Source of the DNA: a virus | IMG/VR virus record: IMGVR_UViG_3300020197_000182 | Coordinates: 1 to 22,392 of that record | Strand: one strand, 5' to 3' | DNA length: 22,392 bases | Part shown: positions 4,455 through 22,029 of the stretch, in pieces | Layout of the letters: every line of letters starts with the position of its first letter | How positions within the stretch are numbered: position 1 is the stretch's first letter | The notes under the pieces: generated by a model | The model's database searches: none | What the model was told of the DNA's origin: nothing | The model's input: the letters and a program-made list of their open reading frames with translations, nothing else | Program-made: the position numbers and the translations under genes

Positions 4455-5163
4455 CTTCTTCCTCCTCTGGAAACATCTTAGTTAGTTCATCCAACACCTG
4501 TTCTTCTAGGCGTTCAATACACACGGGTCTGTCGTATCTGGTAGCAAGACAAAGCTCACACTCACATAGTGGCTCAAGCATCTTGTTATACATACAGTCA
4601 ACTATAATAGGAAAGTTATCCTTGATCTTGGTTGCCAGTGCTTTTTCAGTACCAGTGTTTCTAATAATGAAATCATACATGGTAACATAATCCTTATCAG
4701 CTTCTTCTGACTTATTAGCCATCTCTTCTGATTCGTGGTTACGCCACTCAGCATCTTGCTCAATAATCTGACGGTTGCCGTGAGTAATAAGAATACGGAA
4801 AGCATTAAACCGTGGTGCTAGATTAATTTCGTTTAGGTATCTGCAGTCATCTGCAATGATAACACGCTCAGGTACATCGTCGTTTTCTTCTTGCTGAATC
4901 TTGTAAGCTGATTCAATGAACTTGCTTACCCAGTAATCGGGGTTTTCACGACGGCGATCTGAGCCAAGCTTCTGACATAGCTTACGATATTCTTCTGGTT
5001 GTTTTTCTTTTGTAATACCCATAGTTTCAACTTCAGACTTAAGGGCTGCAGCAAACGGAAGCATTACTGGTTTATACCCAGCCTTGTAGAATAGCTCAGC
5101 AAACAGCTTGGCCGCTGTTGTCTTGCCCACTCTTGCTTTTCCTGACAATAGTAGCATTAGCAT
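4441..5163 (-). CDS. Deoxynucleoside monophosphate kinase-like P-loop protein
   Basis: 240 residues. A Walker A loop GKARVGKTT lies at 8-16. Later segments are KLGSDRRRENPDYWVSK (about 65-81) and VIIADDCRYLNEIN (about 100-113), which match the layout of phage dNMP kinases such as T4 gp1 (P-loop, lid region, 'D.R..NE'). The family phosphorylates dNMPs to dNDPs, which fits the surrounding dNTP genes. The C-terminal third carries CECELC and ends in an acidic tail; the Cys cluster could bind a metal. The ATG at 5163 follows a very strong site, AAAGGAGGTAACTA. The start overlaps the previous gene by 68 bases, an unusually long overlap. Substrate range cannot be read from the sequence. Confidence 0.75.
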   Translation of the reverse strand: MLMLLLSGKARVGKTTAAKLFAELFYKAGYKPVMLPFAAALKSEVETMGITKEKQPEEYRKLCQKLGSDRRRENPDYWVSKFIESAYKIQQEENDDVPERVIIADDCRYLNEINLAPRFNAFRILITHGNRQIIEQDAEWRNHESEEMANKSEEADKDYVTMYDFIIRNTGTEKALATKIKDNFPIIVDCMYNKMLEPLCECELCLATRYDRPVCIERLEEQVLDELTKMFPEEEEDGTT

Positions 5164-5605
5164 TAGTTACCTCCTTTAGTAACAGATGTGGTTCAATAAT
5201 ATTCATAGGAATAGAATATCCGTTATCCCTCAGGATATCAGCGGTAACTTTTCCACAAGTATGGGGTACAGGTTTATTAAAGTAGCGCCCAATCAAATGC
5301 CAAAACACACAGCTCTTGATTGTTTCAGTGCGCCAAATAGTTGTATCTAATAGAGGGGAATCTTTATTAATTAACACAGTCTGGATAAACACTGGGTTGC
5401 CATACTGTTTCCTAACAATGTCTATAGGGACTATCTTAACACCTCTATAGAGTAAAGCAAAGTAAGCAATTCCCTTGTCGGGATACTCAATGTGTACATG
5501 GTTTAAACGAGAGCCTGCTAGGATATACACTAGCCAAGCAATCAACCGTGACCACTTATCTCCACTCTCTAAGTTATAATAAGCAAGCTTTGCCTTAAGT
5601 TTCAT
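5096..5605 (-). CDS. Putative circularly permuted NlpC/P60-like thiol hydrolase
   Basis: 169 residues. An N-terminal hydrophobic helix (about 21-31, LIAWLVYILAG) precedes SRLNHVHIEY (about 32-41) with a His in a beta strand. A Cys at about 117 follows later, in HTCGKVTADILRDNGY, at the start of a helix. The order His-strand then Cys-helix is what permuted NlpC/P60 (YiiX/LRAT-like) enzymes show, whereas classical NlpC/P60 has Cys first. Such proteins act as amidases or esterases on peptidoglycan or lipids. The ATG at 5605 overlaps the DUF4406 gene by 11 bases and has only a weak ribosome site, so it is probably coupled. Family assignment is by pattern only and could be wrong. Confidence 0.5.
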   Translation of the reverse strand: MKLKAKLAYYNLESGDKWSRLIAWLVYILAGSRLNHVHIEYPDKGIAYFALLYRGVKIVPIDIVRKQYGNPVFIQTVLINKDSPLLDTTIWRTETIKSCVFWHLIGRYFNKPVPHTCGKVTADILRDNGYSIPMNIIEPHLLLKEVTNANATIVRKSKSGQDNSGQAVC

Positions 5606-5933
5606 AGAATATCTTTAGCCCCAAGTATACAGCAAGGGCATGCTCGACCTTAGCACCCTCACTTTTTTCCCAACCGGGCAGCATATAAATAGCATCACAC
5701 TTTAGGATTGAATTAAGATCGCGGGTCATGCAGTCTTTTAGGTGTTGCTTTGAATCCGTTGCTTGACTAGGATCAAAGCCTTCATCAAGATCCATCTGTG
5801 CTGGATTATAAATAAAACCAACAGCAGAACTCCACTTTCTACGGAGCTTTCTGTCAGCCTCCATAAAAGCATCAAAGTTGTGATTAGGGTAGCCCCGCAT
5901 AGGGCCAGCAATATAAATATCTAGTTGTTGCAT
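5595..5933 (-). CDS. DUF4406 protein (nucleoside 2-deoxyribosyltransferase-like)
   Basis: 112 residues from the ATG at 5933, preceded by AAAGGAGCTTT. The open frame extends upstream only because it reads through tRNA-Leu, so that extension is rejected. It begins DIYIAGPMRGYPNHNFDAF, continues with VGFIYNPAQMD and ends with CDAIYMLPGWEKSEGAKVEH, with a Glu/His near the helix start. This is the layout of DUF4406 and related deoxyribosyltransferase-fold proteins, which bind nucleosides or nucleotides. In this neighbourhood a role in nucleotide salvage or in clearing modified nucleotides is possible, but the reaction is not known for the family. Confidence 0.8.
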   Translation of the reverse strand: MQQLDIYIAGPMRGYPNHNFDAFMEADRKLRRKWSSAVGFIYNPAQMDLDEGFDPSQATDSKQHLKDCMTRDLNSILKCDAIYMLPGWEKSEGAKVEHALAVYLGLKIFYET

Positions 5934-5947
5934 AAAGCTCCTTTCAA

Positions 5948-6029
5948 TAGCTCCGGGGGGAATCGAACCCCCACGCCGTAAAGCGGCAGATTTTAAGTCC
6001 GCTGCGTCTGCCTGTTCCGCCACGGAGCC
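5948..6029 (-). tRNA. tRNA-Leu (anticodon UAA)
   Basis: 82 bases. The acceptor strands GGCTCCG and CGGAGCT pair (first pair G-U). The anticodon stem GCGGA/TCTGC carries loop CTTAAAA, giving anticodon TAA. A long variable arm (GCCG, loop CTTTA, CGGC) is the class II feature expected for Leu. The T arm is GGGGG-TTCGATT-CCCCC. The discriminator is A, as leucyl-tRNA synthetase requires. No CCA is encoded. It sits 5 bases after the DNA polymerase stop and 14 bases before the DUF4406 start, so it must be cut out of a polycistronic transcript. Confidence 0.95.
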
Positions 6030-6034
6030 GTCCA

Positions 6035-7741
6035 TCAGTGAGTCTCCGACCAGTTAGTACCGATCTTATACTCAGCTGCAATGGGAATACTGATACCTAG
6101 ACGAACACCAGCATCAGTAGCACACTCTGTTACAAGCTTGCCAATGTTGTCTGCATGCTCTGGACATACAGCATACTGTAGTTCGTCATGTACATACGCC
6201 ATTTGATAAGCTTTACCTTTGTATAGCTTTTTTAGTTTAGCGTCAGCAAGTACCATCCAATACTTACTTACAATAGCACCGCTACCTTGTAGCAGTGTGT
6301 TAAGGGCAGCATGTTCTGACCTAACAGGAACCTTACGCCCATCGGGTAAGGTTACAGTACCAAACTTCAATGCGTTATATCTAACTTCCTCTTGTACTTT
6401 AGCAAGTGCGGGAATCTCTTTTTGGAATTTATTCCGTAGCCTAGCGGCCTGATTCACACTGCAGTTAAGAACAAGGGAAATCTTTTTATCACCCGCTCCA
6501 TAGAGATAAGCATAGATGAATGATTTGGCAAGTGCTCTTGATTCAATGCCTGCAGCTTTCTGATTGTAAGTATGAATATCACCGTTAAGCAATACATCGG
6601 CATACTTGCCTTTGTCATACTTGTGCATAAAGTGTGCAAGCATTCTGAGTTCAAGACCTGATAGGTCAGAACCTAGCTGTACAAAACCATCATATGGAAT
6701 CCACAATTCTCTTGCACGGTGGTCGCCACTCACTTGTGCAATATTGGGTTCGCTGTGAGTGCATCTACCAGTAGCAGCACCCTGAGCATTTATGTAACCA
6801 TGAATACGCTTGTCGCGTGAACATGTTGCTCTAGCATTCCAATCTTCTACCATACCCATAAGCTTTACGAGATCAAAATACTTTACCAGCTCTTTAGCTT
6901 CTGGGTAATCTAGAGTCGATAGCACAGACTCATCAACCTTTGGGTTACCCTTTTCAGTTTTAGGTGGAACCCAACCATACTTTTCAGTGAGTCGCTGTGC
7001 AATCTGTTTACGAGAACCGGGATTGAAGGTTTCAATCTTTGGCTTGAGATCCTTACCAGTCTTCTCAGACTTGCGGTAATGAATCTTATCGGGGAAGATT
7101 GTCCTCATCCTATCCTCCAACTCAGCCTTCTCTTGTAGTAGAGAGAAGTAAAGCTCTTCCCCTTTATCGTAGTCATAGCCAAAACCACGGTCAGTCTGCT
7201 CCATTAGAATCTCAGATACCAAGTGCTCAAACTTGAAGACCTTAAGATTGTTCTTAGCAAACTCGCGTTGATGCTTGTAGATATCGCAACCAAGCTTTAC
7301 ATCTTGGATACAATACTCAAGCATCTCTTGTGAGAAATTAGACCAGCCTCCATCATAGTCAATCTTGTGATTGCCTAGGTGTTTACCCCAGCACTCTAGA
7401 GAGTTGCCGCCTAAGGGGTGATTGTTACGGTCTGGATACATAATCCTTGACACAACCAGTGTATCGAAGTACCCGTGCTTGGGTCGCTTAAGGTTTCCCA
7501 GAAGTCTTCTGATTACAGGGATGTCAAAGGATAGTATATTATGACCAATGAGGATGTCGGCTGTGTTTAAGCAGTCAACCAGTTGGTGCATGTTAGACTG
7601 AGTGAAAGTCTTGACATCACCAGTGTCTGCGTTGATAACAACAGCGCACCAGATTCGTGAGACTTCCTTAGCTGGCCCCTTGTTAGTCATGGTAACCTCG
7701 CCAAGTCCATCAGCTTCAATGTCAAGCACTAGTCTAATCAT
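6035..7741 (-). CDS. Family A DNA polymerase with 3'-5' exonuclease, T7 gp5-like
   Basis: 568 residues; replicates the phage genome. The proofreading domain is intact: Exo I DIEADGL (Asp7, Glu9), Exo II IGHNILSFDIP (Asn68, Asp73), Exo III YCIQD (Tyr143, Asp147). Polymerase motif A is SDLSGLELRMLAHF (Asp359), motif B RALAKSFIYAYLYGAG (Arg402, Lys406, Tyr410), motif C YVHDELQ (His518, Asp519, Glu520). The end, GTNWSETH, matches the GPNW...H end I recall for T7 gp5. T7 gp5 is 704 residues; much of the difference is between IFP (215-217) and FNPGSRKQI (239-247), where T7 carries its thioredoxin-binding insert. Tyr410 corresponds to E. coli Phe762. The ATG at 7741 follows GGAGGTATAAT and begins 1 base after the helicase gene. 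Confidence 0.97.
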   Translation of the reverse strand: MIRLVLDIEADGLGEVTMTNKGPAKEVSRIWCAVVINADTGDVKTFTQSNMHQLVDCLNTADILIGHNILSFDIPVIRRLLGNLKRPKHGYFDTLVVSRIMYPDRNNHPLGGNSLECWGKHLGNHKIDYDGGWSNFSQEMLEYCIQDVKLGCDIYKHQREFAKNNLKVFKFEHLVSEILMEQTDRGFGYDYDKGEELYFSLLQEKAELEDRMRTIFPDKIHYRKSEKTGKDLKPKIETFNPGSRKQIAQRLTEKYGWVPPKTEKGNPKVDESVLSTLDYPEAKELVKYFDLVKLMGMVEDWNARATCSRDKRIHGYINAQGAATGRCTHSEPNIAQVSGDHRARELWIPYDGFVQLGSDLSGLELRMLAHFMHKYDKGKYADVLLNGDIHTYNQKAAGIESRALAKSFIYAYLYGAGDKKISLVLNCSVNQAARLRNKFQKEIPALAKVQEEVRYNALKFGTVTLPDGRKVPVRSEHAALNTLLQGSGAIVSKYWMVLADAKLKKLYKGKAYQMAYVHDELQYAVCPEHADNIGKLVTECATDAGVRLGISIPIAAEYKIGTNWSETH

Positions 7742-19198: not shown

Positions 19199-19200
19199 AA

Positions 19201-19274
19201 CATCCCTAACAGGACTTGAACCTGTAACCTATGACTTAGAAGGTCATTGCTCTATCCAGTTGAGCTACAGGGAT
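19201..19274 (-). tRNA. tRNA-Arg (anticodon UCU)
   Basis: 74 bases. Acceptor ATCCCTG/TAGGGAT (last pair G-U), D arm GCTC...GAGC with a normal GG in the loop, anticodon stem ATGAC/GTCAT with loop CTTCTAA (anticodon TCT), T arm ACAGG-TTCAAGT-CCTGT. Discriminator G, no encoded CCA. It reads AGA/AGG, codons that A/T-leaning phages use more than many hosts. Third of three clustered tRNAs. Confidence 0.95.
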
Positions 19275-19278
19275 AGAA

Positions 19279-19352
19279 TAGAAGGGGCGGGAATCGCACC
19301 CACATATTCACGCTTATAAGGCATGCGCTCTATCTACTTCAGCCACCCTTCT
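19279..19352 (-). tRNA. tRNA-Ile (anticodon UAU), with unusual elbow bases
   Basis: 74 bases. Acceptor AGAAGGG/CCCTTCT fully paired, anticodon stem CATGC/GCGTG with loop CTTATAA (anticodon TAT, reads AUA), T stem GTGGG/CCCGC, discriminator A, no CCA. The T loop is TGCGATT, with G where U55 is nearly universal. The D loop AAGTAGATA lacks the usual GG pair. Most bacteria read AUA with a CAU-anticodon tRNA modified to lysidine, so a UAU tRNA is uncommon. It could be functional or beginning to decay. Confidence 0.85.
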
Positions 19353-19358
19353 AAAGAA

Positions 19359-19431
19359 TGCCCCCAGTAGGGATCGAACCTACGACCGATAGATTAAAAG
19401 TCTACTGCTCTACCAACTGAGCTATAGGGGC
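19359..19431 (-). tRNA. tRNA-Lys (anticodon UUU)
   Basis: 73 bases. Acceptor GCCCCTA/TGGGGGC, D arm GCTC-AGTTGGTA-GAGC, anticodon stem GTAGA/TCTAT with loop CTTTTAA (anticodon TTT), T arm GTAGG-TTCGATC-CCTAC. Discriminator A, no CCA. All canonical elbow bases are present. First tRNA of the cluster in the direction of transcription. Confidence 0.96.
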
Positions 19432-19441
19432 AAGTACCTAG

Positions 19442-19977: not shown

Positions 19978-19996
19978 CCTTATCAGTAGCCCCGAC
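19978..19996 (-). promoter_or_regulatory. Candidate phage RNA polymerase promoter (exact copy 2)
   Basis: The minus strand reads GGTCGGGGCTACTGATAAGG, sharing 16 exact bases (19993-19978) with the copy at 11942-11927 and GCTACTGATA with the one at 3711-3728. It overlaps the last codons of the 67-residue gene (CGG GGC TAC TGA) and lies 5 bases before the next ATG. The close fit to a ribosome site leaves open that it acts on RNA rather than as a promoter. Confidence 0.45.
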
Positions 19997-20186
19997 CATT
20001 CGGCCCAGAGTGGATAACATGTGGGTTATTGTGGGCAATCACCCATGAGATTGCATCGTCGTGGTTAGAGAACGAGTCAATATACTCGTCACGGTAATAA
20101 ACTGAGTACCAAACATCTGTCATGTTATTATTAAAGTAGATCTTGATAATCCAGTTATTAGTGTTGTTATTACAAAGGATTCTCAT
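19983..20186 (-). CDS. Small hypothetical protein, 67 aa
   Basis: 67 residues. The ATG at 20186 follows the upstream stop by one base (TAATATG). Ribosome site GAGGCGG is rather far upstream, and ATG 20123 (MTDVWYS) is an alternative without a site. From residue 22 the protein reads MTDVWYSVYYRDEYIDSFSN then HDDAISWVIAHNNPHV, a strand-strand-helix pattern common in small phage proteins with 'Y.V..R.E.I.SF...DDA..W'. Function unknown. Confidence 0.7.
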   Translation of the reverse strand: MRILCNNNTNNWIIKIYFNNNMTDVWYSVYYRDEYIDSFSNHDDAISWVIAHNNPHVIHSGPNGRGY

Positions 20187-20187
20187 A

Positions 20188-20340
20188 TTAGTTATTTACC
20201 GCCTCGTCTACATAGCCAACGAAACCGTCATTTATACGCATGCTGTTTAGTGCCTCTTCCAAAACAGAGATAATATAATCTGCTTCAGATGATTCAACAT
20301 CTTTAATATTGGGGAAATCAAAGACAACATAAACCTTCAT
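20188..20340 (-). CDS. Small acidic hypothetical protein, 50 aa
   Basis: 50 codons: KVYVVFDFPNIKDVESSEAD, YIISVLEEALNSMRINDGFV, GYVDEAVNN. The beta strand, long helix and acidic composition are protein-like. The ATG at 20340 overlaps the previous stop as ATGA, with AAGGAG 10 bases upstream. The next gene begins one base after its stop. Coupled translation on both sides supports it as a real gene. Function unknown. Confidence 0.72.
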   Translation of the reverse strand: MKVYVVFDFPNIKDVESSEADYIISVLEEALNSMRINDGFVGYVDEAVNN

Positions 20341-20477
20341 TGGTCATCATCTCCTTCTTCTTTAAAGGGGTTATCACCGTCCCATTCTCTATAGATGTAA
20401 TCGTACACGCTATAGTCCCATTCATTTCGCTCTTCATAAAGAGCGTCGGGATCTGGATAAGAATCATTTGGTTTCAC
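20337..20477 (-). CDS. Small acidic, Tyr/Trp-rich protein, 46 aa (GTG start)
   Basis: 46 codons from the GTG at 20477, which overlaps the lysozyme stop (GTGA) and has AAGGAGCAAAT as ribosome site. It reads KPNDSYPDPDALYEERNEWD then YSVYDYIYREWDGDNPFKEE and ends EGDDDQ. Its net charge is strongly negative and aromatic content is high. The 3' end overlaps the next gene as ATGA. No family recognised; a host-protein-binding decoy is conceivable. Confidence 0.68.
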   Translation of the reverse strand: MKPNDSYPDPDALYEERNEWDYSVYDYIYREWDGDNPFKEEGDDDQ

Positions 20478-20854
20478 ATTTGCTCCTTGACCTTAAGCCA
20501 ATACTTGACAGTTGCCTGCTTACGATGTCCCTTGGGGCCACCGTTATGAATCCTAGCACAGTCCTCAATAGACTTGTTCTTTGCATAACGATTAAGATAT
20601 GCGGTTACAATCTTACGGGCATACGCTTCGTTCATACAATCATTATAACACCCACCAATGGATGGGTCAAACTGAATCGCATCTTTCCAGTAAACTTCCC
20701 AGATTTGGTAGGGGCCAATAGCCTTACCATTATCTCCTACCATATGCTTGCCATCACCAGACTCCACAATACGCAGAGCCTTAAAGAAAGCGTCTTCCTG
20801 CTTATCAGGAATGGCTTGGACATTACAAAGCAAGGTAAAGATTAGGCCGTACAC
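20474..20854 (-). CDS. Secreted i-type (invertebrate/destabilase-like) lysozyme
   Basis: 126 residues from a GTG at 20854 (AAGGAAATCAA upstream; an in-frame stop 12 bases before the GTG excludes a longer start). It would cleave peptidoglycan in the periplasm. A hydrophobic leader, YGLIFTLLC, ends with VQA at 12-14, a likely signal-peptidase site, though no basic residue precedes it. The body follows i-type lysozymes: ALRIVESGDG (catalytic Glu31), GDNGKAIGPYQIWEVYWKDA (probable Asp41, then GPYQI and YW), KIVTAYLNRYAK, and the hallmark ARIHNGGPKGH...YWLKV (100-122). The Cys-rich disulfide set of animal enzymes is reduced to Cys69, Cys73 and Cys99. The leader would let it reach the wall without a classical holin. 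It sits in the early region, not with structural genes. Confidence 0.78.
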   Translation of the reverse strand: MYGLIFTLLCNVQAIPDKQEDAFFKALRIVESGDGKHMVGDNGKAIGPYQIWEVYWKDAIQFDPSIGGCYNDCMNEAYARKIVTAYLNRYAKNKSIEDCARIHNGGPKGHRKQATVKYWLKVKEQM

Positions 20855-20994
20855 TTGATTTCCTTCTTAAGTTGCTTCTTCAACTTCTTACGCAGCACTT
20901 CACAGGTATCAGGATCATTAATCAGCTGCTTAATATAAGCATTAGCAAGGCGCTGATGATACGGGGTCAAAGCGTTTTTGTTGTACTTAGCCAT
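20842..20994 (-). CDS. Small basic hypothetical protein, 50 aa
   Basis: 50 codons: MAKYNKNALTPYHQRLANAY, IKQLINDPDTCEVLRKKLKK, QLKKEIKCTA. Helical and strongly basic. The ATG at 20994 follows GGAGGTTTGATT, and it starts 2 bases after the upstream gene. Its end overlaps the lysozyme start by 13 bases and carries the lysozyme ribosome site. Perhaps a nucleic-acid-binding early protein; no family recognised. Confidence 0.72.
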   Translation of the reverse strand: MAKYNKNALTPYHQRLANAYIKQLINDPDTCEVLRKKLKKQLKKEIKCTA

Positions 20995-20996
20995 AA

Positions 20997-21809
20997 TCAA
21001 ACCTCCATTAGAGCGTGATGAGAGAAGTCAATACAGACAATGTTACCCTGCCACATAGCAAGGTTACCACTATGCAAGTCACCGCCAAGGCAATACTCTT
21101 GGCCGGAATCCTTTGTAATAAGAACATTAGAAAGGCAGTTAAAAAGTTCGTCCATATCCCGATCAGGGACAATAACATACCCCTTATTAGCAGCCCATTC
21201 TTCAATACCCAAAGGACCAACAGTTAGGAAATGTTCTTCAATAAGACCAGTAAGATCTTCGACTAGAGATTCGGGGAAATAGTTAGCATCCCCTTCACCA
21301 ATCGCTGAAAGAATCTTATCACGATAACGCTTCTCTTCGTCCTCATAGTCATAACAATACTCTTCATATTCAGACTGGAGATAATCACCGTAAACAAGAT
21401 TGTGCTTACATTCAGCAACGCTAGTAGTATAGCCCCAATAAACAAATGTTTCAGGGCCATCAACAAATGTTTCAGGGCCATCAACACGCTGACGATGATT
21501 GATAATCTTTACCATTCTATGAACGGGGGGTGCTGCACCTTCGGAGTGTGCCTTATCTTGGCACACAAACATAAAGTGCATTTCTTCTTTAGAAACACCC
21601 CAAGAATACTTGATACCAAACTCATAAGAGTCATGGAGTTTGGCGTTGTTATCAAGGAACTCGCAAAGACTCCCGGAGCCTGCACAAATAGGGTTACCAA
21701 TAATCACATAAACATCCACTTGTTCTTGGATGTCCGAGTCATAGTAACTGTCCTCTGGCGTGTATTTCGCGCCTGCAAATGTCTTTGGTTTAGAAGATAC
21801 AGTAATCAT
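20997..21809 (-). CDS. Protein with kinase-like catalytic loop (possible degenerate protein kinase)
   Basis: 270 residues; the ATG at 21809 follows GAGGTGATTG, and a TTG one codon earlier is less likely. Near the C-terminus GGDLHSGNLAMWQGNIVCIDFS has the spacing of a kinase catalytic loop (D-x4-N) followed about 13 residues later by a DF dyad, as in eukaryote-like kinases and aminoglycoside phosphotransferases. PPVHRMVKI (about 95-103) could supply the N-lobe lysine. The DF dyad is close to the C-terminus, so no C-terminal half-lobe is left, and the protein may bind rather than phosphorylate. VDGPETF is duplicated in tandem (about 109-122). T7-like phages make an early kinase that modifies host RNA polymerase, but homology to it is not claimed. 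The overlap with the upstream gene is 20 bases. Confidence 0.6.
   Translation of the reverse strand: MITVSSKPKTFAGAKYTPEDSYYDSDIQEQVDVYVIIGNPICAGSGSLCEFLDNNAKLHDSYEFGIKYSWGVSKEEMHFMFVCQDKAHSEGAAPPVHRMVKIINHRQRVDGPETFVDGPETFVYWGYTTSVAECKHNLVYGDYLQSEYEEYCYDYEDEEKRYRDKILSAIGEGDANYFPESLVEDLTGLIEEHFLTVGPLGIEEWAANKGYVIVPDRDMDELFNCLSNVLITKDSGQEYCLGGDLHSGNLAMWQGNIVCIDFSHHALMEV
21441..21485 (-). repeat. Perfect 21-bp tandem duplication inside the kinase-like gene
   Basis: The 21-base unit at 21441-21461 (AACAAATGTTTCAGGGCCATC in plus orientation begins AACAAATGTT) is repeated exactly at 21462-21482 and followed by a further AAC. In the protein it doubles the seven residues VDGPETF without shifting the frame. 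Absence of any difference between copies indicates a recent event or selection for identity. Confidence 0.9.
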
Positions 21810-22029
21810 CAATCACCTCAATAAATGGTAGTTCTTCATGCGGATTATCTATGGCGCTAGGTGACCACCACCTTTCGCCACAGCACTCACAATATGATGG
21901 ATTATACCAAGTCTTACTGACAAGTCTAGCCGTTGCTTCGGCTGCTGTTTCAGCCCACACATAATAATACTGGGGGCCAATATAATAACCCCCGCTATTA
22001 TTCTGAACAAACTTCCACAACTTCTTCAT
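21790..22029 (-). CDS. Small phage protein with CxCC zinc-like motif, 79 aa
   Basis: 79 residues; the ATG at 22029 follows GGAGCCGACTA. Segments: FVQNNSGGYYIGPQYYYVWA, AETAAEATARLVSKTW, YCECCGERWWSP. A similar order ('Y.V.A....EA...A........C.CCG.RW') occurs in phage hypothetical proteins I remember from marine myoviruses and podoviruses. The C-x-C-C cluster could bind zinc. The 3' end overlaps the kinase-like gene start. Function unknown. Confidence 0.78.
   Translation of the reverse strand: MKKLWKFVQNNSGGYYIGPQYYYVWAETAAEATARLVSKTWYNPSYCECCGERWWSPSAIDNPHEELPFIEVIDDYCIF

Follow-up and report, generated by a model that had tools for sequence, protein, structure and literature searches.

A cysteine-poor, destabilase-family (i-type) lysozyme gene in the early region of a T7-like phage: a candidate exported lysis enzyme

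The window, i.e. the whole stretch of DNA analysed, is a 22.4-kb (22,392-nucleotide) record of an uncultivated virus. It carries on its minus strand a gene for an i-type lysozyme, flanked by small open reading frames, with the following features:

20842 to 21000, minus strand: upstream ORF of 52 residues, whose end extends 13 bases into the lysozyme gene; it bounds, on one side, the site that is empty in relatives
20860 to 20865, minus strand: Shine-Dalgarno-like AAGGA(A) before the lysozyme GTG, read from the sequence
20474 to 20854, minus strand: i-type (destabilase-family, GH22i-like) lysozyme gene, 126 residues, GTG start, assigned by PF05497, phmmer and an AlphaFold2 model
20813 to 20854, minus strand: apparent export leader MYGLIFTLLCNVQA, codons 1-14, with putative cleavage after Ala14 (V-Q-A)
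20762 to 20764, minus strand: codon of Glu31, the predicted general acid
20732 to 20734, minus strand: codon of Asp41, the predicted second catalytic carboxylate
20188 to 20340, minus strand: ORF of 50 residues behind the lysozyme gene, absent, like it, from the sister lineage
19983 to 20186, minus strand: ORF that bounds the empty site on its opposite side, with 47% identical homologues in the sister lineage (L099, about 3747; L093:945)

The coordinates, strand, GTG start and motifs of the lysozyme gene are as an earlier note on this DNA had given them. The AAGGA box lies six bases 5' of the GTG and an in-frame TAA five codons 5' of it, so that a longer N terminus is impossible, a later TTG start being possible. 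The 13-base overlap with the 52-residue ORF is what would be expected in a tightly packed operon. Three further proposals concerning the gene were rejected: a start-codon hairpin that blocks translation (the start region is no more stably folded than shuffled sequences, z +1.2), a strong dedicated promoter (the scan did not rise above shuffles, 11 versus 8.7 ± 3.0) and a recent import visible in composition (the gene, at GC 0.444 and GC3 0.457, does not stand out from its neighbours).

Pfam, sequence searches and the AlphaFold2 model agree that the protein is an i-type lysozyme, which bears out the identification that the earlier note had made from motifs. The match to PF05497 (Destabilase) is significant, at 44.2 bits (E 2.6e-11) against a gathering cut-off of 26.2 bits, and none of 14 control genomes gave a PF05497 match. 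A phmmer search of all PDB sequences returned i-type lysozymes only (8bbu, 1.3e-12; 3ab6, 8.7e-8; 2dqa, 4.9e-7), and a profile of 59 phage relatives, 57 of which match PF05497, finds the leech lysozyme at 4e-28, with the nearest other family at 0.026; no PHROGs family was found for the protein. The AlphaFold2 model, built with the 59 relatives, has a mean pLDDT of 92.6, with about 59 at residues 1-10 and helices from residue 17 on, near which the folded domain begins. Superposition with VIA-align gives Z 16.2 for leech destabilase (rmsd 1.8 over 104 residues, 38% identity), Z 15.3 for the Tapes lysozyme and Z 15.1-16.2 for five i-type entries, compared with up to Z 12.0 for soluble lytic transglycosylases and 8.2-8.4 for goose-type lysozymes; a Foldseek search with the model reaches E<=0.001 for i-type chains only. 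The i-type fold is thus preferred to the goose-type and transglycosylase families that the earlier note had named as competing outcomes.

The residues expected to carry out catalysis are strongly conserved. Glu31 is present in all 72 of the relatives that reach the position (73 phage sequences were compared) and pairs with leech Glu34 in both profile and MAFFT alignments. Asp41 is kept in 72 of 73 and pairs with leech Asp46 in the HMMER profile alignment; MAFFT displaces it by one column, since a loop that is flexible in the structure of the leech enzyme (PMC10126035) differs there by one residue in length. Of the catalytic pair guessed previously, Glu31 therefore stands in both alignments, whereas Asp41 stands by profile alignment and is shifted by one column in MAFFT. 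Gly43, Gly47, Gln50, Asp58 and Asn104-Gly105-Gly106 are invariant in all 73 phage sequences. Given these conserved residues in a characterised family, muramidase chemistry would be predicted for the window protein. The missing cysteines pointed out in the earlier note are confirmed, the ORF having four (positions 10, 69, 73 and 99) where the leech chain has 14; Cys73 is common to 57 of the 73 phage sequences, and the mature part of most relatives has one to four cysteines. The many disulfides typical of animal members, which the Pfam model does not require, are not present in the ORF, and the family claim is limited to a cysteine-poor phage branch.

Hydrophobic and with V-x-A at its end, the leader MYGLIFTLLCNVQA is also short and has no basic residue, and hence no basic n-region, so that 'apparent', the word used of it at the outset, is the right one. 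Nearly all relatives have an AxA-type leader or another hydrophobic N terminus, most of them clearer than that in the window, which indicates export, and we infer the same for the window protein, with its leader free of basic residues. In a subgroup of relatives (L068, L071, L074, L075, L077 and L087) the N-terminal hydrophobic stretch (e.g. MNWAILLAALIAVESSG) continues directly as far as the catalytic Glu and a separate leader is lacking, an arrangement that recalls signal-arrest-release endolysins.

The phage is T7-like, encoding a single-subunit RNA polymerase (phrog_414), a primase/helicase, DNA polymerase A and a gp2.5-like SSB, together with RusA, ThyX, ribonucleotide reductase and dUTPase, and in the order of transcription its lysozyme gene comes about 4.7 kb before that for the RNA polymerase. 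A relative, G401 (a 68-kb contig), has an 87% identical RNA polymerase, the same gene order and the same tRNA trio; it also encodes a T7-like connector, capsid, terminase and holin, and its virion genes form a separate block, so that synteny supports the earlier placement of the lysozyme gene in the early region of a podovirus. In G401 and in a second contig, L093, the genes found on either side of the lysozyme gene adjoin each other, about 10 bp apart (the homologues of the 52-residue ORF, at L099:3576-3683 and L093:771-887, are 67-72% identical), whereas in the window they are separated by 655 bp holding the lysozyme gene and the 50-residue ORF, no homologue of which was found in G401 or L093. 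The site is thus empty in the sister lineage and the lysozyme gene is accessory, with which gain here and loss in the sister lineage are both compatible. A search by way of the neighbouring ORF 20997-21812 found no close relatives.

Several other features of these genomes were observed. Tandem genes for tRNA-Lys(ttt), tRNA-Ile(tat) and tRNA-Arg(tct) (19200-19432, minus strand) lie about 1 kb behind the lysozyme gene and are conserved in the sister contigs, and a gene for tRNA-Leu(taa) (5948-6029, minus strand) overlaps the start of ORF 5595-6035. G401 has a second RNA-polymerase-like ORF (L099:6-1715, 569 residues), which shares 25% identity with the main RNA polymerase of the phage and precedes the early genes, and about 3 kb free of convincing ORFs between its virion and early genes (L098:17117-20000, about 37-40 kb in G401) is possibly a control or terminal region.

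The earlier note set such an enzyme apart from the usual phage endolysin folds. IMG/VR has at least 526 stretches with a gene for a relative; i-type lysozymes are thus common in phages, which takes away most of the surprise. Clear phage homologues in GenBank occur in Callevirus (Calle, phi38:1 and phi40:1), Microcystis phage Mel-JY01 has a homologue over a short stretch, and 'Destabilase' is already the name of a phage entry in UniProt (A0A6J5P067). In a 2023 paper the PF05497 members from bacterial and viral metagenomes make up a single branch with poor support, which its authors left out of their phylogeny (PMC10126035); 'destabilase' domains in predicted lysins receive one sentence in a 2026 lysin database. 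Within the phylum of the Phycisphaerales (planctomycetes), PF05497 was found in three of 392 genomes, in chromosomal settings, and a scan of bacterial genomes with the phage profile gave one locus, in a Phycisphaerales MAG with phage-like surroundings; no plasmid match was found. In two planctomycete genomes (L089 and L091) the chromosomal i-type gene lies between EamA-type transporter and glycosyltransferase-9-like genes. A tree of 64 sequences, including three from animals, places the animals in one clade (100/100) and the planctomycete sequences among those of phages, the forks within which are poorly resolved. Of the mixing of phage, bacterial and animal sequences raised earlier, that between bacteria and phages is seen, whereas the animals stand apart. 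Recent capture from an animal was rejected, the three animal sequences forming a separate clade on a long branch.

The best reading of these results, to which we give a probability of about 0.62, is that the gene encodes a muramidase that is exported by the Sec route and serves in host lysis, in line with the 'secreted lysis enzyme' of the earlier note; both the export and the lysis role are what we infer. The lysozyme would be translated from an early-region operon and, by virtue of its hydrophobic N terminus, be exported to the periplasm by the Sec machinery; there it would fold, lacking the disulfides found in animal members. Glu31, with Asp41, would cut MurNAc-GlcNAc bonds of peptidoglycan, and the weakening of the wall would contribute to host lysis, the enzyme acting as main or additional endolysin. 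Six lysin families (Amidase_2, Amidase_3, GH24, M15_3, M15_4 and SLT) were searched for in 24 records, 22 of them i-type carriers. In 20 of the 22 carriers, many of whose contigs may be fragments (five of the records are of 82-140 kb), none of the six was found apart from the i-type gene, to which every SLT match in carriers maps, and this favours the lysis role. The other two are Calle, with an Amidase_3, and G412, with a partial GH24 at the cut-off; the published Callevirus endolysin is an amidase (PMC8776804), making the i-type enzyme extra there. 'Sole lysin' is a provisional description, referring to the six families searched for. In G403, a relative without the i-type gene, a GH24 lysozyme domain (G403:C1:48792-49214) lies within a 1737-residue frame and is probably a virion-associated lysozyme.

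Some observations count against a role in lysis. Relatives of the gene in other phages adjoin replication genes rather than holins, with DNA polymerase B, dUTPase, UvsX and methyltransferase genes among the neighbours, and a holin-endolysin cassette was rejected, short membrane ORFs not being enriched beside the gene in relatives (5/282 versus 18/478, p 0.13). Sister phages do without the gene, and one of them has retained a holin; the window leader has no basic residue; and a secreted lysozyme made early would need restraint, none of which, e.g. a hairpin at the ribosome-binding site, was found.

A rather unlikely alternative, which draws on part of the same evidence, is that the exported early lysozyme serves a non-lytic purpose in the periplasm, i.e. 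local loosening of the wall, or a change in it that shuts out a second phage (superinfection exclusion), and that the real endolysin is encoded elsewhere. The position of the gene before that for RNA polymerase, and beside replication genes in many relatives, would suit such a use, as would the separate amidase of Calle, and absence from the sister phages implies that the i-type gene is not a core lysis gene. More weakly, a core papain-like ORF in the window could encode another wall enzyme. Nevertheless, most carrier contigs are without another recognised lysin, which a lysin role fits better, and we know of no case of an i-type lysozyme in exclusion. The papain-like ORF (5096-5605, minus strand) encodes a 169-residue core protein with invariant H36, H38, E40, T116-C117 and D123; its model, of low confidence, weakly resembles PPPDE1 and a YiiX-like cysteine peptidase in structure, and the protein is a possible permuted papain-like hydrolase.

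It is improbable that the protein acts as a lytic transglycosylase, with one catalytic Glu and an anhydro product, rather than as a hydrolysing muramidase. The SLT profile is weakly matched by 28 of the 59 relatives (best 1.8e-6), SLT folds reach Z 12 and the ES...G.AxG..QI stretch is SLT-like; however, the window protein itself has no SLT (GH23, PF01464) match at E<=1, i-type folds score Z 15-16 and Asp41 is nearly invariant. An isopeptidase or protease-like function, like the second activity of leech destabilase, is most improbable, since although 56 of 61 sequences have His103, which corresponds to His112 of the leech enzyme, Ser49 and Ser51, the proposed nucleophiles of the leech isopeptidase, and Lys58 (PMC10126035) are not conserved, the three positions being, depending on the alignment, Gly/Lys, Ala and Trp in the window.

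The preferred reading, that of an exported muramidase used in lysis, concerns a family that is already on record, in phages as well and under the same name, and the window lysozyme is ordinary within a neglected phage branch of that family; no biochemically characterised phage i-type member was found in the literature searched. I-type lysozymes are usually described as animal defence and digestion enzymes, and the bacterial PliI inhibitors of i-type lysozyme have so far been explained by animal immunity. We suggest, as a speculation that we consider doubtful, that i-type lysozymes of phages make up a large class of Sec-exported endolysins that has been overlooked and has a clade of its own, that the origin of the family may be phage or bacterial rather than animal and that PliI might act against phage lysis too. 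Hundreds of phage genes with conserved catalytic residues, export leaders and few cysteines represent enzymes that are simple to express; the phage branch offers a test of the origin of the family and raises a question on the purpose of the PliI inhibitors, and the clean presence or absence of the gene between sister phages is a usable natural comparison.

Among known systems, the destabilase of the leech Hirudo medicinalis (8bbu/8bbw) shares with the window protein its fold, the catalytic Glu, the Asp by profile alignment, and the NGGP and YW motifs; it differs in having 14 cysteines, compared with three in the mature window protein, and the isopeptidase Ser/Lys residues, and the window gene comes from a bacterial virus and belongs to a separate clade. 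The i-type lysozymes of Tapes japonica and Meretrix lusoria (2dqa, 3ab6 and 4pj2) have the same fold (Z about 15) and predicted catalytic residues, but they are disulfide-rich animal proteins of 28-30% identity. The Destabilase A0A6J5P067 of an uncultured Caudovirales phage is a member of the same family with 44% identity (E 4.9e-11 in the structure search), although it and the IMG/VR relatives come from other phage types, many of them T4-like, where the neighbours are genes for DNA polymerase B, dUTPase and UvsX. Calle gp55, annotated as 'lysozyme (Destabilise-like protein)' in the Callevirus group of Cellulophaga phages (Calle, phi38:1 and phi40:1), is a homologue with a leader and 32% identity, but falls below PF05497 in the genome scan, and its phage also has an Amidase_3 endolysin. 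The planctomycete PF05497 genes (L089-L091) share the motifs, a membrane leader and placement in the phage part of the tree, but are chromosomal, with EamA transporter and glycosyltransferase-9-like neighbours in two of the genomes.
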